A stretch of DNA of 64,000 nt, taken from positions 372,001 to 436,000 of the forward strand of contig NZ_FNVZ01000004.1 of NCBI RefSeq assembly GCF_900104625.1. The letters run 5' to 3'. Numbering within the stretch: position 1 is the first letter of the stretch; the number at the start of each line of letters is the position of its first letter. Positions 7,813 to 35,450 of the stretch are shown here, piece after piece. The position numbers were made by a program, and so were the translations under genes. Origin of the DNA: Leptotrichia massiliensis (GTDB taxonomy: Bacteria; Fusobacteriota; Fusobacteriia; Fusobacteriales; Leptotrichiaceae). The notes under the pieces were generated by a model. The model was given only the letters and a program-made list of their open reading frames with translations, did not search any database and was not told the DNA's origin.

Positions 7813-8757
7813 CTACAAATCCCAAAACGAAATCTCAATATCTTCACTTTTAAAATTATTATCTATTTCAGTATTTTCAATTTCTTCATAAAAAACTTTA
7901 TACATCTTGCTTTTATACTTAAAAGTCTTCATTTTATCTAAATTCTTTTCCAAAAACGAGTTCTCATAACTTCCGATCATAAAAAAATCACAATTATAGC
8001 CTTTATTTTGAATAAATTTTACAGCTTTTATAAATTCATTTTTATTTTTTTTCTCATCTGCATTTTTATCCTTTAAAACAAAATCCACATACAAAAAATT
8101 TGAAATTTTATTGATTTCAGGCATTTCTGGATATCCAAAAAACGCTATCACTTTTCTAAATTTATACAAAAGTTTATAAATTTTTTTGTAATCTGTCACA
8201 ATGTATTTTTTATTTGTCTTATTTTTCAGATAAATTTCAAAATTTCCATAGTTCAAAATTTCTTCATACTTCACTATTAAATCGCCTTTTTTCAAATTTT
8301 TTAAGCTAAAAAATACAATGTTTTTATAAAATTCATAAATTGGCATACTTTTTCGCCTTTTTGTCAAAATTTTTTGTGCTATTTTATTTTCTTCCAAAAT
8401 AGTTGTAATTATGTTTTTTACCCCAAGTTTTTTTGCTTCTGTTATCAGCATTTCATAAGCCTTGCCAAAATTGACTTTATTTCTATATTCTTTTTTTATT
8501 CTAAATGAATTTAAATACCCGATATTATTTTTAAAAATAGAACAAGCCCCAACACCAACAAGATTGTCATTTTCAGTATCAATTCCTACCACGATAATCG
8601 GAGTTTTTTCGCTATCCTTATGCAATGATTCAAACAAATTCGGCACTTTCTCATATTTTACCTGTACAAGCGATTCCATTTCCTCTTCATCTAGAATATT
8701 TCTTATTTCATCGCTATAATCACTATTTTGAATAATTTTAAATTCTATTTTTTTCAT
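7813..8757 (-). CDS. GNAT-fold acetyltransferase-like protein, 314 aa
   Basis: The N-terminal half looks like a GNAT N-acetyltransferase: LVGVGACSIFKNNIGYLNSFRIKKEYRNK, then a helix and IITTILEENKIAQKIL, in the order of the acetyl-CoA binding core, though the usual Q/RxxGxG/A loop is degenerate (RNKVNFGKA). The C-terminal half (about 150-314) is Lys/Phe-rich without a recognisable motif. The start overlaps the end of the upstream MBL-fold gene by 20 bases, so the two are translationally coupled. Substrate unknown. Confidence 0.6.
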   Translation of the reverse strand: MKKIEFKIIQNSDYSDEIRNILDEEEMESLVQVKYEKVPNLFESLHKDSEKTPIIVVGIDTENDNLVGVGACSIFKNNIGYLNSFRIKKEYRNKVNFGKAYEMLITEAKKLGVKNIITTILEENKIAQKILTKRRKSMPIYEFYKNIVFFSLKNLKKGDLIVKYEEILNYGNFEIYLKNKTNKKYIVTDYKKIYKLLYKFRKVIAFFGYPEMPEINKISNFLYVDFVLKDKNADEKKNKNEFIKAVKFIQNKGYNCDFFMIGSYENSFLEKNLDKMKTFKYKSKMYKVFYEEIENTEIDNNFKSEDIEISFWDL

Positions 8758-12283: not shown

Positions 12284-13606
12284 CTATTTATCAAATTTTA
12301 TCTTCCCATACTTCCTAAATTTCCGTGCATGCTGTCTTGAAAATACTTCCAGAATGAATTTCAGTCCCTTATTCCTAGAAGTTTTCACTCTTCTTATAAT
12401 TCGCTTGAAAGTGAAAGTGTCAAGCCACAATTTATAAAATTCCTTCTGCAATGTGTCGTAACTCATATTTTTAGGCTTGAATACTACTGTTTCAGTGTCG
12501 TAGTAATACCAGTCTTCTGTAAGCAATCTGCCTTCTTCTTTTAACTGATTAAAAAAAGGTGTTCCTGGATACGGAGTAATTATGTTATATCTTGGCACAT
12601 CTACCCCAATTTCCTCTATAATATCAGGAATTTGGCGAATTGACTCCACTGTGTCAGTTTCCATTCCTATCATAAGTGTGGAAAGGACTGATATTCCATA
12701 AGATTGAATCGTTTTTACGAGTTTTTTGTATTCTGTGACATTGTTAAATTTTTTATTTACTCCATCAAGATTTTCCTGAACAAAACTTTCCAAGCCAATA
12801 ACCAAGCCTATACAGCCAGATTCTTTCATTAACTGAAGAATTTTTTTATCATTGCCGATATTTATTGTTGCAGAAGCAGTCCATTTTATTTTTAATTTCT
12901 TCAATTCTTCCATTAGCTGAATGGCATAATTTCTGTTGCCTAAAAAGTTTGGATCAAGAAATATCCATTTTTTGGGCTTATTCGCTTTTATTTCACTTAT
13001 CACGTACTCTATGCTTTTTATCTGGTTTTTTCCAGAATACATCTTTGTGATGGAACAGTAGGAGCATTTATTGGAACAGCCGTTGTTTGCGACAATTGTG
13101 CCATAATTTTTGAAATATTTTTTATTTTTCAAAAGTTTTCGGTTTAATGGCTTCGGTTCATAATCATTTCCAACGAGGTTAAAATATTCTCTTTTTGGAG
13201 TTCCATTTGTAAAATCTTCAAGAAACATCGGAAATGAAATTTCAGCAGCTCCCGTAATTACTGTATCAAAATATTGTAATGCCTCTTCCTTCAAAGCTGT
13301 TGCATAATGCCCGCCAATTAACGTATACGCTCCTTTACTTTTCCAAAACTTGGCAATCTCTTTTGCCCTTTTCGATCCTGAAATTACCGAAGAAATACAA
13401 ATTAAGTCAAATTTTTCATTTTCATATTTTTTAGAAGTAGCATCCCATTTTTCCACACCTTCATCCACAATAACAACATCAGCGTTATACTTTCTGTCAA
13501 TTAGTGATTCCAGCGTTATTAACGTAATTTGCGGATAATATTTTCTTTTGTGAATCGAGTTATATTTGTAAATGTTATCCTTTGCTAAAACAAGCATTAT
13601 TCTCAT
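12284..13606 (-). CDS. Cobalamin-binding-type radical SAM protein 2
   Basis: A 440-aa protein with the same architecture: an N-terminal B12-binding-type domain (GGHYATALKEEAL), then a radical SAM barrel with Cys177, Cys181 and Cys184 (CSNKCSYC), then IIEEIGVDVPRYNIITPYPGTPFF and a C-terminal tail. It resembles the 15262-16581 product more than the others (PRY-ILTPFP/PYPGT, YYDTETVVFKPK versus YDVQHAVFHPK). The ATG overlaps the stop of the upstream gene as ATGA, so the two are translationally coupled. DxHxxG is absent. Confidence 0.9.
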   Translation of the reverse strand: MRIMLVLAKDNIYKYNSIHKRKYYPQITLITLESLIDRKYNADVVIVDEGVEKWDATSKKYENEKFDLICISSVISGSKRAKEIAKFWKSKGAYTLIGGHYATALKEEALQYFDTVITGAAEISFPMFLEDFTNGTPKREYFNLVGNDYEPKPLNRKLLKNKKYFKNYGTIVANNGCSNKCSYCSITKMYSGKNQIKSIEYVISEIKANKPKKWIFLDPNFLGNRNYAIQLMEELKKLKIKWTASATINIGNDKKILQLMKESGCIGLVIGLESFVQENLDGVNKKFNNVTEYKKLVKTIQSYGISVLSTLMIGMETDTVESIRQIPDIIEEIGVDVPRYNIITPYPGTPFFNQLKEEGRLLTEDWYYYDTETVVFKPKNMSYDTLQKEFYKLWLDTFTFKRIIRRVKTSRNKGLKFILEVFSRQHARKFRKYGKIKFDK

Positions 13607-14907
13607 AATTTTATTCCTTTTTTGTTATAAACTTCTTTTCGATTGATATAATTTACAGCAAGAAATACAAGCGCATGTTTAAAATTAGCAGCTCCGTCAA
13701 ACAGCCTTTTCCAGATACTCGAATGTCTGTTATATTCCACCTTGCACTTCAAAATTCCCGCCTCAAATTCCTCAATCGTCATATTATATGGCTCAAAGCA
13801 CGCTTTCCCATAACGAAAGTTCTCATCCAGCCACCATTGTTCATAAAGCAATCGCCCTTCTTTTTTTAATCTTTCATAAAAAGGAGTTCCTGGTATCGGC
13901 AATGCTGGGTTAAAGCCTGCAAGGAAAAATTTATGCTTTTTAGAAAATTCCAAAATTTCATCAAAGCAGTTTTTATCATCATAATCATACCCAATTACAT
14001 AGCTTGCGTGTACAAGAATCTTGTTTTTTTTATAAATATTAATAATTTTTTCATAGTCAAACTCATAATTTGCAACCTTTTTCATTTTCTTAATATTTTT
14101 TATATTTATATTCTCAAATCCCAGAAGCATTTCAATGCACCCCGCTTCTGACATCAATTTTATCAATTTCTCATCTCTTGCAATATCGATGCTGCCTTGA
14201 CAAGCCCATTTTATTTTCAGTTTTTTCAATTCTTCAAACAGTTTTAGAGCTTTTTTCTTATTAGCAAAAATATTATCATCCACAAAATAAACAATTTTCG
14301 CTCTTTTATTCGTTCTAAAAATTTCCTTTACCTCATTTATTACATTCTCAACATCTCTATGTTGAAAATCTCCTTTATGAACTGCCCCAATCGTGCAAAA
14401 TTCACATTGATGCATACAGCCTCGCCCAAACTGAACTGGCACGACAAAAGAATATTTTTTTCCCTTGTAAATGCTCCTATCATAAACAACATTATTAATA
14501 TCTGGTAATTTTCTACATTCATACCTCTTTTTCGGCACCCCGTTTTCCAAATCGTTCAAAAATTCATTCCAAGTAACTTCTCCACTTCCCACACAAACCG
14601 TATCTGCATGTTCCTGCACTTCATCAGGCATAAGCGAGGCGTGATACCCTCCAATCATCACATAAACTCCACGTTCCCTATAATTTTTTGCTAGTTCATA
14701 AGCCCGCCTAGCCGTCATCGTAAACGTAGAAATCACAATTAAATCAACCTCAAGATCCATCGGAATATCCTCAATCCTATCATCAAAAAGCATAAGCTCA
14801 TGTTTAGTCTTATCCGTAAGCCTTGAAAGCACCGCAAAAGCAAGTGGCTCTATCGCATCATTGGAACGTTTTCCCCCCATATTTGGACGTAAAAAAGCTA
14901 TTTTCAT
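13603..14907 (-). CDS. Cobalamin-binding-type radical SAM protein 3
   Basis: A 434-aa protein. The N-terminal domain carries VIGGYHASLMPDE-like sequence (MIGGYHASLMPDE) and the radical SAM core has Cys164, Cys168 and Cys171 (CMHQCEFC). The C-terminal part contains ALPIPGTPFYERLKKEGRLL, the consensus of this family. I chose ATG 14905-14907 behind AAGGAGAAG; a TTG six codons earlier overlaps that ribosome binding site. A 354-base gap with a two-hairpin element separates it from the next radical SAM gene upstream, so it may have its own promoter. Confidence 0.9.
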   Translation of the reverse strand: MKIAFLRPNMGGKRSNDAIEPLAFAVLSRLTDKTKHELMLFDDRIEDIPMDLEVDLIVISTFTMTARRAYELAKNYRERGVYVMIGGYHASLMPDEVQEHADTVCVGSGEVTWNEFLNDLENGVPKKRYECRKLPDINNVVYDRSIYKGKKYSFVVPVQFGRGCMHQCEFCTIGAVHKGDFQHRDVENVINEVKEIFRTNKRAKIVYFVDDNIFANKKKALKLFEELKKLKIKWACQGSIDIARDEKLIKLMSEAGCIEMLLGFENINIKNIKKMKKVANYEFDYEKIINIYKKNKILVHASYVIGYDYDDKNCFDEILEFSKKHKFFLAGFNPALPIPGTPFYERLKKEGRLLYEQWWLDENFRYGKACFEPYNMTIEEFEAGILKCKVEYNRHSSIWKRLFDGAANFKHALVFLAVNYINRKEVYNKKGIKL

Positions 14908-26572: not shown

Positions 26573-29500
26573 ATGAAAATTACTAAAATTGATGGTATCT
26601 CTCATAAAAAATATAAGGAAAAAGGGAAGTTAATAAAAAGTAATGAGATAGAAAAAGATGTTACTGAAGAAAGATTTAATGATATAGAAGCAAAAACGAC
26701 AGAATTATTTCTAAAAACATTAGATTCTTATGTAAAAAATTATGAGAAGTGTGAAGAGCAAAATAAAGAAAGAAGAGAAAAAGCTAAAAATTATTTTTCC
26801 AAAGTAAAACTAATAATTGACAATGAGAAAATAACAATATGTAATGAAAACACTGAAAAAATAGAAATAGAAGATTTCAATGAATATGATGTTAGAAATA
26901 GAAAATACTTTAATGTTTTGAATAAAATATTAAATGGAGAAAATTATACTGAAGAAGATTTAGAAGTTTTTGAAAATGATTTGCAAAAAAAACTAAATCA
27001 AATACAATCAATAAAAAATTCATTGGAAGAAAACAAGGCACATTTTAAAAAAGAAAGCATAAATAATACTACTGATAGAGTTAAAGGGAATAATAAAAAA
27101 AGTTTATTTTATGAATATTATAGAAATTCTTCAAAACATCAGGAGTATGTGAATAATATTTTTGAGGCATTTGACAAATTATATAGTAATAGTCATGAAG
27201 ATATAAATAATCTATTTTTGGAAATAACAAAAGATTCTAATGATAGGAATATAAGAAAAATTAGAGAAACATATCATGAAATATTGAATAAAAATAAGAC
27301 TGAATTTGGAGAAGAATTATATAAAAAAATACAAGACAATATAAATAATTTCGATAAATTATTAGAAATAGAACCTGAAATAAAAGAATTAACAAAATCT
27401 CAGATATTTTATAAATACTATATAGATAAAGTAAGTTTAGATGGAACAAATATAAAGCATTGTTTTTCTCATTTGGTAGAGATTGAAGTAAACCAACTAT
27501 TGAAAAATTATGTGTATTCTAAAAGAAGTACTAATAAAGAAAAACTAGAAAACATCTTTGAATATTGTAAATTAAGGAATTTAGTAAAAAATAAATTAGT
27601 AAACAAGTTGAATAGTTATATAAGAAATTGTGGGAAATATAATGGCTATATAAGTAATAATGATGTAGTAAACAGTGAAAAAATTTCTGAAATAAGAACA
27701 AAAGAAGCCTTTTTAAGAAGTATTATAGGAGTGTCTTCTTCTGCATATTTTTCTTTGAGAAATATTTTAAATACTGATAATACACAAGATATAACGAATA
27801 AAGTAGATAAAGAAGTAGATAAATTATATCAAGAAAATAAAAAAATTGAGTTAGAAGAAAGATTAAAGTTATTTTTTGGTAATTATTTTGATATAAATAA
27901 TCAACAAGAAATAGAAGATTTTCTAATGAATATTGATAAAATTATTAGTAGTATAAGAAATGAAATTATTCATTTTAAAATGGAAGCAAATGCATATAGT
28001 ATATTTGATTTTAATAATGTTACTTTAGGAAATAAAGCAAAAAAGATACTCAATGAAGAGATTAATAAAGAAAAAATAAAATTAAAAATTTTTAAACAGT
28101 TAAATAGTGCAAATGTTTTTGACTATTTGAGTAATGAAGATATAACAGAATATATGGGCAAAGCTGTCTTTTCATTTACTAATAGAAATATTCCTTTTGT
28201 ACCTTCTTTTACAAAAATATACAATAGAGTACAAGATTTAGCTAATAGTCTAAAAATAGAAGAATGGAAAATTCCAGAGGGAAGCGAAAAAAAGGATGCT
28301 CAAATATATTTATTAAAAAATATTTATTATGGAGAATTTTTAGACAAATTTTTAAATGAAGAAAATGGAATATTTATTAGTATAAAAAATAAAATAATAG
28401 AATTAAATAGAAACCAAAATAAAAGAACAGGTTTCTATAAATTAGAAAAATTTGAAAAAATTGAAGAAAAAAATCCTAAGAAGTATTTAGAGATTATTCA
28501 AAGTTTATACATGATAAATATAGAGGAAATAGATAATGAAGAAAAAAATATATTTTTAGATTTTATTCAAAAAATATTTTTAAAAGGATTTTTTGAATTT
28601 ATAAAAAATAATTATAATTATTTATTGGAATTAAAGAAAGTTCAAGATAAGAAAAATATATTTGATAGAGAGATGTCAGAATATACAACAGGGGAAAAAA
28701 CTTTAGAAGATATGGAAGAAATAAACGAGATTACACAAAAGATAAAAATAACAGAAATTGATAAAATATTAAATCAAACAGATAAAATTAATTGTTTTTA
28801 CTTACTTCTAAAATTACTTAATTATAAAGAAATTACTGAATTAAAAGGAAATCTCGAAAAATATCAAATCCTTAGCAATACTAATATATATGAAAAAGAA
28901 TTGACACTTTTAAATATAGTTAATCTTGATAATAACAAAGTAAAAATTGAGAATTTTGAAATTTCAGTTAAAGAAATTGGTAAATTTATAGAAAAAATAA
29001 GCGGAAATAGGAAAATTGAAACTTTTGAAGAACTGAGAAATTTTGAAAAAATAGGAAATAGTGTTGAATATTATAATGTTTATTCTGATGATAAAAATAT
29101 AAAGAATATAAGAAATTTATACAATATTAAGAAATACGGTATGTTAGATTTGCTTGAAAAAATTTCAGAGAAAGCGAATTATTGTATTAAGAAAAAAAAT
29201 TTAGAAGAATATAATGAGTTAAAAAAGCAATTAGAAGATGAAAAAACAGATTTCTATAAAATCCAGAAAGATTTGCATTATAAATATCAAAAAAAATATA
29301 AAAATTTTTCAGAAAAGAATAATATAGAAGATTATAAAAAATATAAAAAATCTATAGAAAATATAGAAAAATATGTACATTTAAAAAATAAGATTGAGTT
29401 TAATGAGCTGAATTTACTTCAAAGCTTATTATTAAAAACACTTCATAGATTAGTAGGATTTACTTCAATTTGGGAAAGAGATTTGAGATTTAGATTAACA

Positions 29501-29980
29501 GGAGAATTTCCAAATGAATTAGATGTAGAGGATATATTTGACCATAGAAAAAGATACAGAGGAAATAAAGGTCAAATTTGTAAAAAATATGACCAATTTA
29601 TTAGTGTACATATTGAATATCAAAATAATAACAAAATGAAAAATATAAAATTTGATGATAATAATCCTATTCGAAATTATATTGCACACTTTAATTATTT
29701 ACCAACTCCTAAATATTCGATATTGAAAATGTTAGAAAAATTAAGAGAATTATTGGATTATGACAGAAAATTAAAGAATGCTGTAATGAAATCAATAAAA
29801 GGTATTTTGGAAGAATATGGGTTTGAAGCTGAATTTATTATAAATCCTAATAAAGAAATAATTTTAAATTCAATCAAGTCTGCTGAAATTATACATCTAA
29901 AGAAAAATGATTTAAAATCTCATAGAAATTCAGAAGATTTATGTAAATTGGTAATAGCAATGTTAGAATATTCAAAATAA
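26573..29980 (+). CDS. cas13a: Type VI-A CRISPR effector Cas13a (C2c2), crRNA-guided RNase
   Basis: An 1135-aa single-protein RNA-targeting effector. Both HEPN RNase motifs are intact: HEPN1 RNEIIH (Arg462, His467) and HEPN2 RNYIAH (Arg1034, His1039). YDRKLKNAVMKS holds Arg1065-Lys1066, matching the residues needed for crRNA processing in L. buccalis Cas13a. The start KITKIDGISHKKY and blocks such as GVSSSAYFSLRNIL, FVPSFTK, QIYLLKNIYYGEFL and LVGFTSIWERDLRFRL place it near the L. buccalis/L. wadei proteins as I recall them (about 1150 aa), not the longer L. shahii protein (about 1390 aa). ATG 26573 lies 6 bases after AGGAGG; a frame extension to TTG 26558 is rejected. First gene of cas13a-cas1-cas2. 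Confidence 0.97.
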   Translation: MKITKIDGISHKKYKEKGKLIKSNEIEKDVTEERFNDIEAKTTELFLKTLDSYVKNYEKCEEQNKERREKAKNYFSKVKLIIDNEKITICNENTEKIEIEDFNEYDVRNRKYFNVLNKILNGENYTEEDLEVFENDLQKKLNQIQSIKNSLEENKAHFKKESINNTTDRVKGNNKKSLFYEYYRNSSKHQEYVNNIFEAFDKLYSNSHEDINNLFLEITKDSNDRNIRKIRETYHEILNKNKTEFGEELYKKIQDNINNFDKLLEIEPEIKELTKSQIFYKYYIDKVSLDGTNIKHCFSHLVEIEVNQLLKNYVYSKRSTNKEKLENIFEYCKLRNLVKNKLVNKLNSYIRNCGKYNGYISNNDVVNSEKISEIRTKEAFLRSIIGVSSSAYFSLRNILNTDNTQDITNKVDKEVDKLYQENKKIELEERLKLFFGNYFDINNQQEIEDFLMNIDKIISSIRNEIIHFKMEANAYSIFDFNNVTLGNKAKKILNEEINKEKIKLKIFKQLNSANVFDYLSNEDITEYMGKAVFSFTNRNIPFVPSFTKIYNRVQDLANSLKIEEWKIPEGSEKKDAQIYLLKNIYYGEFLDKFLNEENGIFISIKNKIIELNRNQNKRTGFYKLEKFEKIEEKNPKKYLEIIQSLYMINIEEIDNEEKNIFLDFIQKIFLKGFFEFIKNNYNYLLELKKVQDKKNIFDREMSEYTTGEKTLEDMEEINEITQKIKITEIDKILNQTDKINCFYLLLKLLNYKEITELKGNLEKYQILSNTNIYEKELTLLNIVNLDNNKVKIENFEISVKEIGKFIEKISGNRKIETFEELRNFEKIGNSVEYYNVYSDDKNIKNIRNLYNIKKYGMLDLLEKISEKANYCIKKKNLEEYNELKKQLEDEKTDFYKIQKDLHYKYQKKYKNFSEKNNIEDYKKYKKSIENIEKYVHLKNKIEFNELNLLQSLLLKTLHRLVGFTSIWERDLRFRLTGEFPNELDVEDIFDHRKRYRGNKGQICKKYDQFISVHIEYQNNNKMKNIKFDDNNPIRNYIAHFNYLPTPKYSILKMLEKLRELLDYDRKLKNAVMKSIKGILEEYGFEAEFIINPNKEIILNSIKSAEIIHLKKNDLKSHRNSEDLCKLVIAMLEYSK

Positions 29981-29995
29981 GGAGTATGAAGAGAA

Positions 29996-30910
29996 ATGCC
30001 CAATATAATTCACATAACAAAGGCTGATGATTTATCAATATCGAATAATCAGCTTGTAATGATTGATGAAGATAATAATGATGAGAAAAATAAGATTTCT
30101 TTGAATGATATATCTGCGATAGTTATTGAAAATTGCCATTGTAAGATTAGTGCGATTTTGCAGTTGAGGCTGATTGAAAATAATATTCCGATTATTATTT
30201 GCAATGAGAAACATCAGCCTGAAATTCATTCGCTGGGATTATTTAATCATTTTCAAGTGACTTTACGGATAAATGAGCAGATTGAGTGGGACAAGGAGAA
30301 AAAGGAAAAGTTGTGGAGCAGGATAGTGGAGAATAAGATTGAAAATCAAAGAGCATTGTTAGAGTATCTTGAAAAAAGTGATGTTTCGATTGAAAGACTG
30401 AAAACATATAAGGAAAACTTGAAAAAAGATGATGTGAGTGCAGAACATCAGGAAGCAATAGCTTCAAGGATATATTTTCAGGAATTGTATAGCAATAGTT
30501 TTAAAAGATTTGATGAAGATGGTGTGAATTCTGCACTTAATTATGGATATATGATTTTAAGAGCTATAATATCATCAAAGATTGTAGCCAAAGGGTTTCA
30601 TCCAAGTTTGGGATTACATCATAAGTCACAGTTTAATGCTTATAATTTTTCTGATGATATAATAGAAGTTTTTCGTCCTATGGTGGATTATCTTGTTTAT
30701 ATGTACAAAGATATTTTGAATGAAGTGAAATTAAGTAAGGAGATAAGACAAAAAATACTTCTTGTAGCACAGCAGAAGGTATTATTTAACAATAAGAAAT
30801 ATGATTTTTTCCAAGCGGTAGACTATTATTTGGATAGTATACGAAATTATTTTGTAAAAGATGAAGAAGTGATAATTCCGACATTGAGCGTGATGGACTA
30901 TGAGTATTGA
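29996..30910 (+). CDS. cas1: CRISPR integrase Cas1 (type II/VI-like)
   Basis: A 304-aa spacer-integration nuclease, best matching the short Cas1 of type II and VI systems. The C-terminal catalytic block reads EAIASRIYFQELYS, NSALNYGYMILRA, then GLHHKSQFNAYNFSDDI with the catalytic His and EVFRPMVD with the acidic residue. The N-terminal beta domain includes ISAIVIENCHCKIS. It follows cas13a by 15 bases and overlaps cas2 by 11 bases, so the adaptation module is co-transcribed with the effector. No cas4, csn2 or reverse transcriptase is present. Confidence 0.95.
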   Translation: MPNIIHITKADDLSISNNQLVMIDEDNNDEKNKISLNDISAIVIENCHCKISAILQLRLIENNIPIIICNEKHQPEIHSLGLFNHFQVTLRINEQIEWDKEKKEKLWSRIVENKIENQRALLEYLEKSDVSIERLKTYKENLKKDDVSAEHQEAIASRIYFQELYSNSFKRFDEDGVNSALNYGYMILRAIISSKIVAKGFHPSLGLHHKSQFNAYNFSDDIIEVFRPMVDYLVYMYKDILNEVKLSKEIRQKILLVAQQKVLFNNKKYDFFQAVDYYLDSIRNYFVKDEEVIIPTLSVMDYEY

Positions 30911-31217
30911 GTATTTTGGTCTGCTTATGTATGATTTTCCTATGCAGACAGATGTTGAGATATTTGAATATAGGACTTTTAGAAAAAAATTGATAGAAAA
31001 AGGATATTATCAGCTTCAAAAATCGGTATATATAATGAGGTCGAAAACAAAAGAAAAAATCGAACTGACAGAAAAACAGTTATCAATGCTCGCTCCAGAA
31101 AATTCCTCAATTCGTTCCATTATACTGACAGAAGAGCAGTTTCAAAAAATGAAGGTGCTCGCAGGAGAAGTGACAATGGGAGAAAAAATTTCACAAAATA
31201 AAATATTAGAATTTTGA
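30900..31217 (+). CDS. cas2: CRISPR adaptation protein Cas2
   Basis: A 105-aa Cas2 of the type II-like group: an N-terminal beta strand ending GLLMYDFPMQT with the conserved Asp, FRKKLIEKGYYQLQKSVY in the ferredoxin-like core, and IILTEEQFQKM near the C-terminus. It forms the Cas1-Cas2 integration complex. The ATG lies inside the end of cas1 (11-base overlap). Its stop is about 140 bases before the first CRISPR repeat, which is the normal cas2-leader-array order. Confidence 0.95.
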   Translation: MSIEYFGLLMYDFPMQTDVEIFEYRTFRKKLIEKGYYQLQKSVYIMRSKTKEKIELTEKQLSMLAPENSSIRSIILTEEQFQKMKVLAGEVTMGEKISQNKILEF

Positions 31218-31356
31218 AAAATCATAAAATATGGTATAATATAAATGGTAGTTTATATCATTTATTAAGGAGTAATATCAAGATGAAAATATGGAAAACA
31301 CAGATAAATAGCAAAAATAATAATCAAAATATCCTATCACTAAAAACAAATGATGG
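31214..31356 (+). promoter_or_regulatory. CRISPR leader with array promoter
   Basis: AT-rich leader between cas2 and the first repeat. TTGAAA (31214-31219) overlaps the cas2 stop; a 15-base spacer leads to an extended TGGTATAAT with TATAAT at 31235-31240. Transcription on this strand yields crRNAs with the repeat 5' of the spacer, as Cas13a requires. New spacers should be added next to 31357. Confidence 0.7.
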
Positions 31357-31363
31357 GATATAG
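31283..31363 (+). CDS. Possible 26-aa leader ORF ending inside the first repeat
   Basis: ATG 31283, preceded by AAGGAG (31267-31272, 10 bases upstream), opens a 26-codon frame (MKIWKTQINSKNN...) whose TAG stop is the TATAG of the first CRISPR repeat (31361-31363). It lies wholly within the leader downstream of the predicted promoter. It has no recognisable domain. It may be chance, a relic, or a translated leader segment. Confidence 0.25.
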   Translation: MKIWKTQINSKNNNQNILSLKTNDGI

Positions 31364-31796
31364 ACCACCCCAATATCGAAGGGGACTAAAACTAAATTGT
31401 AAATCTGTCATACCTTCCATTTTTTGATATAGACCACCCCAATATCGAAGGGGACTAAAACTCGGTTTAAAACCGAGATATCAGATCATAAAGATATAGA
31501 CCACCCCAATATCGAAGGGGACTAAAACTATATAGATAAAGATATAGATGTGGTAAATTGATATAGACCACCCCAATATCGAAGGGGACTAAAACTTTTC
31601 TAATATCGAGGACGATCCAGATTTGTGATATAGACCACCCCAATATCGAAGGGGACTAAAACATATTGTCTGAAGTTCCAGTCAAACAAAATGATATAGA
31701 CCACCCCAATATCGAAGGGGACTAAAACTTTAAAATGAATTTTAAAAATTCCACTTTTATGATATAGACCACCCCAATATCGAAGGGGACTAAAAC
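31357..31796 (+). CRISPR. Type VI-A CRISPR array, leader-proximal part (7 repeats, 6 spacers)
   Basis: Seven identical 36-nt repeats start at 31357, 31426, 31493, 31560, 31627, 31693 and 31761. They begin GATATAGACCACCCC and end CGAAGGGGACTAAAAC, with a CCCC/GGGG stem around AATATCGAA. Spacers are 30-33 nt: 31393-31425, 31462-31492, 31529-31559, 31596-31626, 31663-31692 and 31729-31760. The repeat matches the L. shahii Cas13a repeat as I recall it. The spacer at 31462-31492 contains an 8-bp inverted repeat (CTCGGTTT / AAACCGAG). After the seventh repeat the array breaks off into mobile-element sequence and resumes at 33150. Confidence 0.98.
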
Positions 31797-31797
31797 T

Positions 31798-32076
31798 AAA
31801 GCTATTTATGAGAAAAATAGAATATTTTCTAAGAATAAAAATGGTACATTTGGTAAATGGATTGAAAAGATGGAAATTCATAAGGACAATACAAACGTAG
31901 TAATTTGTAAATATTCCTTATATTTAGAATATGAAAATAAGGATATTGAAAAAATGTCTGATGTAGAAAAAAGAAAGGTTTATTTACTTAGAGAATGAAC
32001 AAAAAAGTTACATCTTGTTGAAAAGACAAAAAAAGAAATTGTTACGATAAAAGAAGAGCTTGAGTCTTTAAAATAA
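31798..32076 (+). pseudogene. 5'-truncated DUF3102-like gene with in-frame stop, inside the CRISPR locus
   Basis: A continuous frame starts one base after repeat 7 with no start codon or ribosome binding site. It reads KAIYEKNRIFSKNKNGTFGK..., meets TGA at codon 67 (31996-31998) and continues in the same frame (TKKLHLVEKTKKEIVTIKEE) to TAA at 32074-32076. A Trp codon (TGG to TGA) would fit the interruption. The KNGTFGKWIEK-type segment recalls DUF3102 proteins of plasmids and integrative elements; that assignment is tentative. The missing 5' end coincides with the repeat boundary. Confidence 0.6.
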
Positions 32077-32101
32077 ATAATTTATGAAGGAGGTTTTTAT
32101 T

Positions 32102-32752
32102 ATGAATTTTATTTCATCTATATTTTCAACATATTTTTCTATTATGGATTTTTCCATAATAACAAAGATAATAATACTAGTTTTTATTATCTTATATGTA
32201 CGTTCAATCATTAAAATTCTTAAATTTAAGTTTATTGAAATTGTATATGCTTTTATAGGAGGTATAGTTGGATTATTATCAGTATTAATTGTAGGTTCAA
32301 TATACAAAGTTATATATAACATATTAATGTTTATTGCATATGGTGCTAACTTTCATTCCTGGTATAGTATACCTTTTACTGAAATAGGTTGTGTGATTTT
32401 GACTATGACATTTCTTATGGTTAGCTATCTGGTTCTCGATATGTCAAATGATGAACCTACAGAAATTTCTCGAAATAGGTCATATAATTCTGACATATCA
32501 TCGGGTCAAGGATTATATGCTGAATATTCTAGTTATTTTTTTCAAGCGATAACTTATGATGAGTTTCTAGAACGTCGTGAATATCAATCATTTGATGAAA
32601 TTACAAGAGTTGACAATCTGCTGAGCCTTAATAATGAGGCTGAATTATATAAAGACGACGAGCGAGAGAGGGAACTAAAAGAGAAACTCGAAAGTTCATA
32701 CACTAGTAATATTGAATGGGATTATCATACAGGCGAATACGTGGAGAAATAA
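32102..32752 (+). CDS. Membrane protein of unknown function within the interrupted CRISPR array
   Basis: A 216-aa protein. The N-terminal half holds about four hydrophobic segments (near residues 5-25, 27-45, 50-80 and 95-115). The C-terminal half (about 120-216) is soluble and rich in Glu, Arg and Tyr. I do not recognise the family. ATG 32102 follows GAAGGAGG; an ATG at 32084 overlaps that site. It lies 25 bases after the DUF3102-like pseudogene, so both probably came from one mobile-element operon. Its tail overlaps the minus-strand recombinase relic region. Being intact among broken genes, it may still be expressed. Confidence 0.65.
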   Translation: MNFISSIFSTYFSIMDFSIITKIIILVFIILYVRSIIKILKFKFIEIVYAFIGGIVGLLSVLIVGSIYKVIYNILMFIAYGANFHSWYSIPFTEIGCVILTMTFLMVSYLVLDMSNDEPTEISRNRSYNSDISSGQGLYAEYSSYFFQAITYDEFLERREYQSFDEITRVDNLLSLNNEAELYKDDERERELKEKLESSYTSNIEWDYHTGEYVEK

Positions 32753-32754
32753 CA

Positions 32755-33150
32755 TTTTAATTGTTAAACAAAATATATTTACAGATATTTCCTTATTTCT
32801 GACTTGCTCCAACATTTCAGAATCCTCTTTAGATAAATTAATAACCTTGATAGGTCGTCCTACACTATTGCCCGTTTTTCTTCTAAATTTCCTACCTGAT
32901 CCATTAACGGGCATATTTCTTATACCGTCATTAATTCTTTCAATAAATATAGTTTTTTCTCGTTCTGCTAAATATATTTAAAAATGGAATAACAACTACA
33001 TTTACAATTTCATTTTTCTTAATCACCGATTTTATGATTTAAAAGCTACTGATTAATTACAATTATATTAACTTTCATATCTTTAAGTTTTGTATAAAGT
33101 TCTGTAACTTCTGTAAAATTTCTTCAAAGTCTGTCAATATCAGTAACAAG
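32755..33150 (-). pseudogene. Serine recombinase (resolvase/invertase) relic, truncated at both ends
   Basis: Minus-strand translation gives LVTDIDRL, a TGA, then RNFTEVTELYTKLKDMKV and NIIVINQ: the end of a serine recombinase catalytic domain (DRLxRN). After stops and frame changes, FLAERE-like YLAEREKTIFIERINDGI and GRPIKVINLSKED follow, the typical linker helix and start of the C-terminal helix-turn-helix. The N-terminal catalytic Ser region is missing because the frame is cut exactly where CRISPR repeat 8 starts (33150). The 3' end is also lost. Dead gene from a mobile element. Confidence 0.75.
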
Positions 33151-33308
33151 ATATAGACTACCCCAATATCGAAGGGGACTAAAACTGTAATGTGCATCAA
33201 TTAAGATAATTATATTGATATAGACCACCCCAATATCGAAGGGGACTAAAACCCCAGTTAAATTGCTCTATGCTTTTTACTTTTGATATAGATCACCCCA
33301 ATATCGAA
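33150..33308 (+). CRISPR. Type VI-A CRISPR array, leader-distal part (2 full and 1 decayed repeat)
   Basis: Repeats at 33150-33185 (one change, GATATAGACTACCCC) and 33217-33252 (perfect), then a terminal repeat at 33285 whose first 24 nt are kept (GATATAGATCACCCC...) and whose 3' third is lost. Spacers are 33186-33216 (31 nt) and 33253-33284 (32 nt). Orientation matches the first part, so this is the distal end of one original array. Decay at the far end from the leader is the normal pattern. Confidence 0.95.
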
Positions 33309-33334
33309 AAGTGATATTTAATAAAAATAACTTT

Positions 33335-33539: not shown

Positions 33540-35450
33540 ATGATAGAAATGATTTTGCCTGATGGTAGTAAAAGACAGTTGGAAAATCCGATGACTGTTG
33601 TGGAATTTGCAAAAAGTATTGGGAGCAGTCTTGGGAAGGCAACCGTTGGGGCGATAATTGACGGTGTGCAAGTTGATCCATCTCATATTATTGACAAATC
33701 TGGAACAATTGAAATAATTACTAATACAAGTGAAAAAGGGATAGAAATTATAAGACATAGTGCGGCACATATTATGGCTCAGGCTGTGCAAAGACTTTTC
33801 CCGAATACAAAGGTTACGATAGGGCCTGTTATTGAAAATGGATTTTTTTATGATTTTGACCCTGAAAAACCGTTTACTGAAGAAGATTTAGCAAAAATTG
33901 AAGAGGAAATGGCAAAAATTGTAAAAGAGAATTATGAATTTAAAAGAAGTGAAATGACTGCCGAAGAAGCAAAAAAATTCTTTGCTGAAAAAGGTGAAAC
34001 TTATAAAGTTGAGATAATTGAAGACTTGGGTGCAGATAAAGTTAGCATTTATCAGCAAGGTGAATTTATAGACTTATGCCGTGGAACACACATTCCATCG
34101 ACTAGCTACCTAAAAGCATTTAAGCTAATGTCAACAGCAGGAGCTTACTGGCGTGGAGATTCAAACAATAAAATGCTTCAAAGAATTTACGGAGTGGCTT
34201 TTGCGACAAAAAAAGAGCTGGATGACTATTTGACAATGATGGAAGAGGCTGAAAAGAGAGATCACAGAAAATTAGGAAAACAGCTTGACTTGTTCTTTGT
34301 AGATGAGCATGGACCTGGATTCCCTTTCTTTATGCCAAAAGGTGTGGAATTATTTAATAAATTGCAAGAAATCTGGAGAGTTGAGCATAAAAAAAGAGGT
34401 TATCAGGAAATAAAAACTCCAATTATGCTAGATAAGGAATTGTGGGAAATTTCTGGACACTGGTTCAATTACCGTGAAAATATGTATACATCAACAATTG
34501 ATGAAAAAGAATATGCAATAAAGCCTATGAACTGTCCGGGTTCAATAATTGCCTACAAGAATAACTTGCATTCATACAAGGATTTGCCATTGAAATATGG
34601 AGAAATGGGGCTTGTTCACAGACACGAATTTAGTGGAGCTTTACACGGACTTATGAGAGTTAGAGCATTTACACAGGATGATGCCCACGTTTTCTGTACT
34701 AAAGAGCAAATTGAGGAACAAATTATCGAAATTATTGATTTATATGATAAATTTTACACTGTATTCGGATTTGAATACCACATTGAATTGTCAACAAAAC
34801 CTGAAAAAGCAATAGGTTCAGACGAAATATGGGAAATGGCTGAAGCAAACTTGAAATCAGCTTTGGAACATAAAGGAATTAATTACAAGTTAAATCCTGG
34901 AGATGGAGCATTCTACGGACCAAAAATCGACTTTAAGATGAAAGATTCAATCGGAAGAATCTGGCAATGTGGAACAATCCAGTTAGACTTTAACCTTCCA
35001 GCAAGATTTGAAATGAGCTATATAGGTGCAGATGGTGAAAAACACGAGCCAGTAATGATTCACAGGGCAATGTACGGAAGTTTGGAAAGATTTATTGGAA
35101 TCTTGATTGAACATTACGCAGGAGCGTTCCCAACTTGGCTAGCGCCAGTACAAGCAAGAATCCTGACAATTTCTGACGAACAGGTGCCTTTCGCAAAAGA
35201 ATTGTTTACAAAACTTCAAGATGCAGGAATCAGAGTAGAGCTTGACACAAGAGTAGAAAAAATTGGATACAAAATCAGAGAAGCAAACGGAGACCAAAAA
35301 ATACCAGTTCAACTAATAATTGGTAAAAATGAAGTTGCAAACAACGAAGTAAATGTAAGAAGATTTGGTTCACAAGACAGTAAAAACGTATCAGTTGATG
35401 AAATTATCCAAACTTTAAAACAGGAATCTTTTGTTCCGTTTTCAAAATAA
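33540..35450 (+). CDS. thrS: Threonyl-tRNA synthetase
   Basis: Charges tRNA-Thr. The 636-aa protein has the full domain order: N-terminal TGS domain (residues 1-60), the editing domain with HSAAHIMAQAVQRLFP (HxxxH) and CRGTHIPST, the class II catalytic core with MNCPGSI (zinc Cys), RHEFSGALHGLMRVRAFTQDDAH and the zinc His motifs, and the C-terminal anticodon-binding domain (PVQARILTISDEQ). ATG 33540 follows GAAAGAAGGA. Monocistronic. It directly follows the CRISPR locus, in the same direction. Confidence 0.98.
   Translation: MIEMILPDGSKRQLENPMTVVEFAKSIGSSLGKATVGAIIDGVQVDPSHIIDKSGTIEIITNTSEKGIEIIRHSAAHIMAQAVQRLFPNTKVTIGPVIENGFFYDFDPEKPFTEEDLAKIEEEMAKIVKENYEFKRSEMTAEEAKKFFAEKGETYKVEIIEDLGADKVSIYQQGEFIDLCRGTHIPSTSYLKAFKLMSTAGAYWRGDSNNKMLQRIYGVAFATKKELDDYLTMMEEAEKRDHRKLGKQLDLFFVDEHGPGFPFFMPKGVELFNKLQEIWRVEHKKRGYQEIKTPIMLDKELWEISGHWFNYRENMYTSTIDEKEYAIKPMNCPGSIIAYKNNLHSYKDLPLKYGEMGLVHRHEFSGALHGLMRVRAFTQDDAHVFCTKEQIEEQIIEIIDLYDKFYTVFGFEYHIELSTKPEKAIGSDEIWEMAEANLKSALEHKGINYKLNPGDGAFYGPKIDFKMKDSIGRIWQCGTIQLDFNLPARFEMSYIGADGEKHEPVMIHRAMYGSLERFIGILIEHYAGAFPTWLAPVQARILTISDEQVPFAKELFTKLQDAGIRVELDTRVEKIGYKIREANGDQKIPVQLIIGKNEVANNEVNVRRFGSQDSKNVSVDEIIQTLKQESFVPFSK

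Follow-up and report, generated by a model that had tools for sequence, protein, structure and literature searches.

How does a fragment of plasmid-type DNA come to lie in the place of a spacer within a Cas13a CRISPR array, with both of its ends cutting through genes exactly at the edges of repeats? This question is raised by a type VI-A locus of the mouth bacterium Leptotrichia massiliensis, which we analyzed in a window, i.e., one continuous stretch of DNA of 64,000 nt (positions refer to this stretch unless another locus is named). The following features make up the locus.

26573 to 29980, plus strand: cas13a, the type VI-A effector gene (NCBIfam NF038188 cas13A_C2c2, 649 bits; cut-off, 150)
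29996 to 30910, plus strand: cas1 (NCBIfam TIGR03639, 251 bits; cut-off, 120)
30900 to 31217, plus strand: cas2 (NCBIfam TIGR01573, 49 bits; cut-off, 24.5)
31218 to 31356, plus strand: leader region from cas2 to repeat R1, assigned by its position and by the degenerate repeat at the opposite end of the array
31357 to 31796, plus strand: leader-side array with repeats R1 to R7, 36 nt each and all perfect, and six spacers of 30 to 33 nt
31797 to 33149, no strand assigned: insert (1,353 nt) that consists of plasmid-type DNA and occupies the place of a spacer, recognized by plasmid colinearity and sharp ends
33150 to 33320, plus strand: leader-distal array with repeats R8, R9, and R10 and two spacers
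33540 to 35450, plus strand: open reading frame (ORF) of 636 aa, the right-hand chromosomal neighbor

Type VI-A membership was borne out by cas13a, cas1, and cas2, which all score above the NCBIfam cut-offs, together with the 36-nt repeats and 30- to 34-nt spacers. The 636-aa ORF was recognized by eye and is presumably the threonyl-tRNA synthetase gene. A mismatch scan gave the array order downstream of cas13a-cas1-cas2 as R1 to R7, the 1,353-nt insert, R8, R9, and R10. R7 (31761 to 31796) and R9 (33217 to 33252) are perfect, R8 (33150 to 33185) carries one substitution (GACTACC), and the terminal repeat R10 (33285 to 33320) has 10 mismatches in 36 nt and is degenerate in its 3′ half, which places the leader-distal side on the right and the leader on the left. 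The first-pass annotation of the window had drawn the same boundaries (R7 ending at 31796, the insert from 31797 to 33149, and R8 starting at 33150), and the repeat scan reproduced them exactly. Its count of seven perfect repeats followed by three more holds for R1 to R7 and for R9 but has to be amended for R8, with its one mismatch, and for the degenerate R10. Ordinary spacers in these Leptotrichia arrays fall within 30 to 34 nt without exception (43/43), and the lengths are bimodal: 43 spacers in this range are followed by stretches of 1,353 and 1,677 nt (the latter from another strain; see below), with none of intermediate length. A match of the array repeats to the Rfam family MIR8675 was weak, far below the gathering score, and was dismissed as chance. 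The excerpts of the Leptotrichia Cas13a survey in PMC6914741 list two type VI-A loci for L. massiliensis P3007, a count matched by the present genome, and contain no mention of interrupted arrays.

Three genes or gene remnants fill the insert.

31797 to 32076, plus strand: remnant of a parB-like gene, 5′-truncated at R7, with an internal deletion and an in-frame stop
32084 to 32752, plus strand: intact ORF of 222 aa (216 aa from the ATG at 32102) with a hydrophobic N terminus
32769 to 33149, minus strand: remnant of a serine recombinase gene, 5′-truncated at R8, frameshifted and containing stops

The best match of the insert in the plasmid collection was pJMUB3870-2, a 15.3-kb circular plasmid of L. 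trevisanii (NZ_AP019833.1). The insert is colinear with positions 13174 to 14315 of the reverse strand of this plasmid, in four pieces spanning query positions 1 to 1353; these pieces, which include both ends, make up 66% of the insert and are on average about 81% identical to the plasmid. The plasmid carries, in this order, parA, a parB-like gene, a small hypothetical gene, and a serine recombinase gene on the other strand, and both genes that are cut by the insert edges run on intact there. The assignment to mobile-element DNA made from the letters alone is thereby confirmed, and the intact element continuing both truncated genes, for which a search had been proposed, was found at the level of a related plasmid. 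In comparison with the insert, pJMUB3870-2 agrees in the colinear arrangement of its parB-like, small, and serine recombinase genes and in matching both insert ends; it differs in its identity of about 81% in the matched parts and in its shorter middle gene. The left gene is indeed 5′-truncated at R7; its former label, DUF3102-like, was corrected to parB-like, since it corresponds to the partner downstream of parA on Leptotrichia plasmids (its Pfam match, to UPF0137, is weak). The remnant lacks about 64 N-terminal codons and, relative to the plasmid homologue, about 156 nt in an internal deletion, and it contains the in-frame stop. The middle gene is open, as first described; the C-terminal part of its 216/222-aa product is homologous to the small gene of pJMUB3870-2, no match was obtained in Pfam or PHROGs, and no intact phage or virus with the 216-aa gene was found in IMG/VR. 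For the recombinase remnant (88% identity over 381 nt to the plasmid gene, whose product belongs to PF00239, Resolvase), the previously noted truncation at R8 removes the first 59 residues, and frameshifts and stops come in addition. The fragment occurs in its own genome only once, as the insert. Judged by its sequence, the insert is related to a segment of a Leptotrichia plasmid and has decayed.

The junctions were compared with the plasmid in register. At the left junction, 34 of 40 positions agree inside the insert and 14 of 40 on the repeat side; at the right junction, the corresponding values are 37/40 and 11/40. The insert edges coincide with repeat edges on both sides, and R7 and R8 are full-length. 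With plasmid homology ending at repeat edges on both sides, the probability of a chance coincidence is negligible. Repeat and plasmid share at most 1 nt at either junction, and the window contains no N there. The two ends form no terminal inverted repeats (8/30 identical positions), and as direct copies they agree at best in 15 of 31 positions. Being neither inverted nor direct copies of each other, they argue against a transposon as well as against a Campbell-type integration at one spacer.

The arrays of relatives were compared among 13 Leptotrichia genomes, one per species. This comparison, already suggested in the first-pass annotation, showed that the orthologous array in one relative (G006) is uninterrupted and has the same terminal repeat and flank, so that the interruption is probably the derived state. 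In G006 (L051 8713 to 8810), two identical adjacent spacers, TAGATTGCTGTTCTACCAAGTAATCCATATT, reflect a recent repeat-spacer duplication. A second oversized insert was found in Leptotrichia sp. oral taxon 879 F0557 (G004), in a different array located beside purH.

L050 7711 to 9387 (G004:C9:89710-91386): F0557 insert, 1,677 nt between two repeats

The F0557 insert contains three complete ORFs of 136, 177, and 155 aa, the last of which is SecB-like (Pfam, 43.6 bits), and the first approximately 15 codons of a fourth gene, which is cut at the repeat; none of its ORFs is a recombinase gene. The same position of the purH-side array is uninterrupted in the present genome (G000) and in G002. A related three-gene operon is present in a phage-like contig of another genome (G010, C37, L095), and no intact phage or virus carrying the F0557 insert genes was found in IMG/VR. 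A small excalibur-type gene flanks the purH-side array in several Leptotrichia (L050 9484 to 9735) and is also found next to the operon in the G010 contig; the F0557 insert may therefore have had a more complex history than its counterpart in the window. Scaffold gaps (Ns) are present in the F0557 array, and one of them extends into the repeat that precedes the insert; apart from these assembly Ns in one F0557 repeat, the repeats flanking both inserts are full-length. We thus consider F0557 a second case that is strong but not clean, and its occurrence in another array suggests that such arrays may pick up whole genes. A third candidate, a stretch of about 955 nt before the terminal repeat of an array in G003 (L052 8616 to 9640, G003:C1), was not counted because both bordering repeats are degenerate. 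This stretch, possibly an older case, contains a 177-aa ORF and is bordered on one side by a degenerate repeat and on the other by a terminal repeat with a partial deletion.

The DNA between R7 and R8 derives from an element of the type that spacers are taken from, namely, a colinear Leptotrichia plasmid. We hypothesize, giving it about an even chance of being correct, that the insert is a plasmid segment that entered the array in exchange for array DNA, through homologous recombination at two spacers. According to this hypothesis, two spacers, A and B, were once present in the array; both would have come from one Leptotrichia plasmid, and from the same strand of it, and would correspond to the ends of the present insert.

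31797 to 31827 (about 31 nt), plus strand: putative former spacer A, sense to the parB-like gene
33119 to 33149 (about 31 nt), plus strand: putative former spacer B, antisense to the recombinase mRNA

The array portion between these spacers would have been replaced, through a crossover at each of them, by the 1.35 kb that separate their protospacers on the plasmid; this could have been one double exchange or an integration at one spacer with subsequent loop-out at the other. Since the repeats on the outer sides of A and B would have stayed untouched, both insert ends would come to lie at repeat edges and within genes. The size of such an insert would be set by the distance between the two protospacers, and bimodal lengths are what would then be expected. 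Cas13a cuts RNA and not DNA; hence, a targeted plasmid would survive as a recombination partner. Recombination between spacers and phage targets has been established experimentally (Varble et al. 2019, as cited in excerpts of PMC8616872 and PMC7242445). Several spacers of one array can match a single stretch of a relative's chromosome, as illustrated by an array in G003: three of its spacers have their matches within about 35 kb in G009, and for two of these the strand is the same. Unlike the plasmid origin, the colinearity, the decay, and the junctions, the former-spacer status of the insert ends and the crossovers are what we infer. The parental spacers are predicted to have the sequences TAAAGCTATTTATGAGAAAAATAGAATATTT and TTTCTTCAAAGTCTGTCAATATCAGTAACAA and the form of 30- to 34-nt spacers. 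Neither 31797 to 31827 nor 33119 to 33149 was found as an ordinary spacer in the 13 genomes, no array-plasmid junction patterns for A or B were found in IMG/VR, and the present spacers of the window array gave no match to the plasmid family of pJMUB3870-2. What weighs against recombination at two spacers is that one element must have contributed both of them and that two crossovers must have occurred over about 31 bp. In addition, the inserts of 1.35 and 1.68 kb are short arcs compared to the size of a plasmid or phage, which would require either that long inserts be selected against or that the recombination partners be short linear fragments. The first-pass annotation had also drawn on the strands, one guide being antisense and the other sense. 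This argument has no discriminating power, since both orientations are represented among the ordinary spacers of these arrays: in 21 protospacer matches, sense and antisense occurred together, and the flanks showed no clear PAM/PFS motif.

The same anatomy is predicted by a single capture of a long fragment by Cas1-Cas2, which we regard as a possible, though less probable, origin of the insert. According to this explanation, one linear plasmid fragment of about 1.35 kb was integrated at the leader-side repeat, with R8 being leader-adjacent at that time; the duplication of the repeat made R7, the six normal spacers were added later, and the 36-nt repeat would represent the Cas1-type duplication. 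Mid-gene ends at intact repeats would then arise in one step with no need of prior spacers, cas1-cas2 adjoin the array, and the F0557 insert would be the same error repeated. That R7 and R8 (one nucleotide different) flank the insert fits as well, a feature expected equally from recombination at two spacers. However, Cas1-Cas2 measures the length of the prespacer, and a capture of 1,353 nt, compared to ordinary spacers of 30 to 34 nt and with no intermediate lengths, conflicts with such measurement. A narrow literature search found no precedent for unusually long CRISPR spacers. As a broader and still more tentative idea, type VI-A adaptation modules might sometimes capture kilobase, gene-sized "giant spacers," making the Cas13a array an integron-like collector of plasmid and phage genes; if true, its contents would be the open 216-aa gene here and the three-gene operon with the SecB-like chaperone in F0557. 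Exchange at two spacers and capture of a long fragment make opposite predictions on parental strains.

The remaining explanations appear considerably less probable. A Campbell-type integration at one spacer, with a later deletion that removed most of the plasmid and left the remainder abutting the other repeat, would make do with a single plasmid-derived spacer and relies on a demonstrated process, single spacer-target crossovers (excerpts of PMC8616872). It is nevertheless improbable: the same spacer should be present at both ends, which in fact differ (8/30 inverted and at most 15/31 direct), the second end must have fallen exactly on a repeat boundary (twice if F0557 arose alike), and the plasmid shows no repeat-like sequence at the ends (11/40 and 14/40). 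A false join of a plasmid contig with the array during assembly might be suspected, since the genome is in 5 contigs and CRISPR repeats can mislead assemblers; the overlap of repeat and plasmid of at most 1 nt, the lack of a second genomic copy of the fragment, the lack of N at the junctions, and the disabling mutations in the insert genes, unlike a live plasmid, make it very unlikely. The serine recombinase gene at one end could point to an ordinary transposon, prophage, or integron insertion that later decayed. This is the least probable origin and is largely refuted: terminal inverted repeats are absent (8/30); one insert edge runs through the recombinase gene itself, so that the codons for the N-terminal 59 residues are missing, and the other runs through an unrelated gene; no recombinase gene is found among the ORFs of the F0557 insert; and on the plasmid homologue, these genes belong to the normal backbone beside parA. 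The earlier judgment that a simple transposon insertion is unlikely is therefore upheld, with neither terminal inverted repeats nor any other signature of ordinary insertion detected.

The proposed recombination between a CRISPR locus and a targeted element over about 30 bp of spacer homology resembles the staphylococcal case (Varble et al. 2019; excerpts of PMC8616872 and PMC7242445), from which the present locus differs in that phages there acquire CRISPR-adjacent host DNA. In Streptococcus pyogenes, prophages integrate into CRISPR loci (Varble et al. 2021; excerpts of PMC10651486 and PMC10434264), and element DNA likewise interrupts the array; there, however, integration is mediated by repeat-like sequences of the virus (excerpts of PMC10651486), whereas the insert in the window is a small internal plasmid fragment, cut within genes, with no repeat-like sequence at its ends. 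Insertion sequences (ISs) within CRISPR-Cas loci (e.g., PMC10359306) also place mobile DNA there, in contrast to which the window insert contains no IS, has no terminal inverted repeats, and is bordered by intact repeats on both sides.

If exchange at two spacers is the right explanation, spacers would leave homology tracts by which a host takes up genes from the elements that it fights, an RNA-targeting system, sparing DNA, may be prone to such spacer-driven gene capture, and the locus would be a natural, sequence-readable record of it. R7 together with the left insert end would still have the form of a crRNA unit, and its guide, being sense to the parB-like gene, would not be self-targeting. 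Because no repeat precedes the right end any longer, production of the antisense guide would have ceased. The two distal spacers could be transcribed from the leader only by reading through the insert.

Elsewhere in the same genome, a second cas13a-like gene (1,170 aa, recognized by sequence; L055 8871 to 12383, G000:C5) has arrays of a different repeat variant on both sides (8050 to 8153 and 12640 to 13014), and no cas1-cas2 is present among the ORFs of at least 150 aa between these arrays. In the second GATATAG-type array of the genome (L048, G000:C5:1068384-1068760), one spacer has a 100% self-match at G000:C5:757069-757099, in what is probably a prophage. This spacer is sense to a long ORF, and triggering of Cas13a is therefore not expected.
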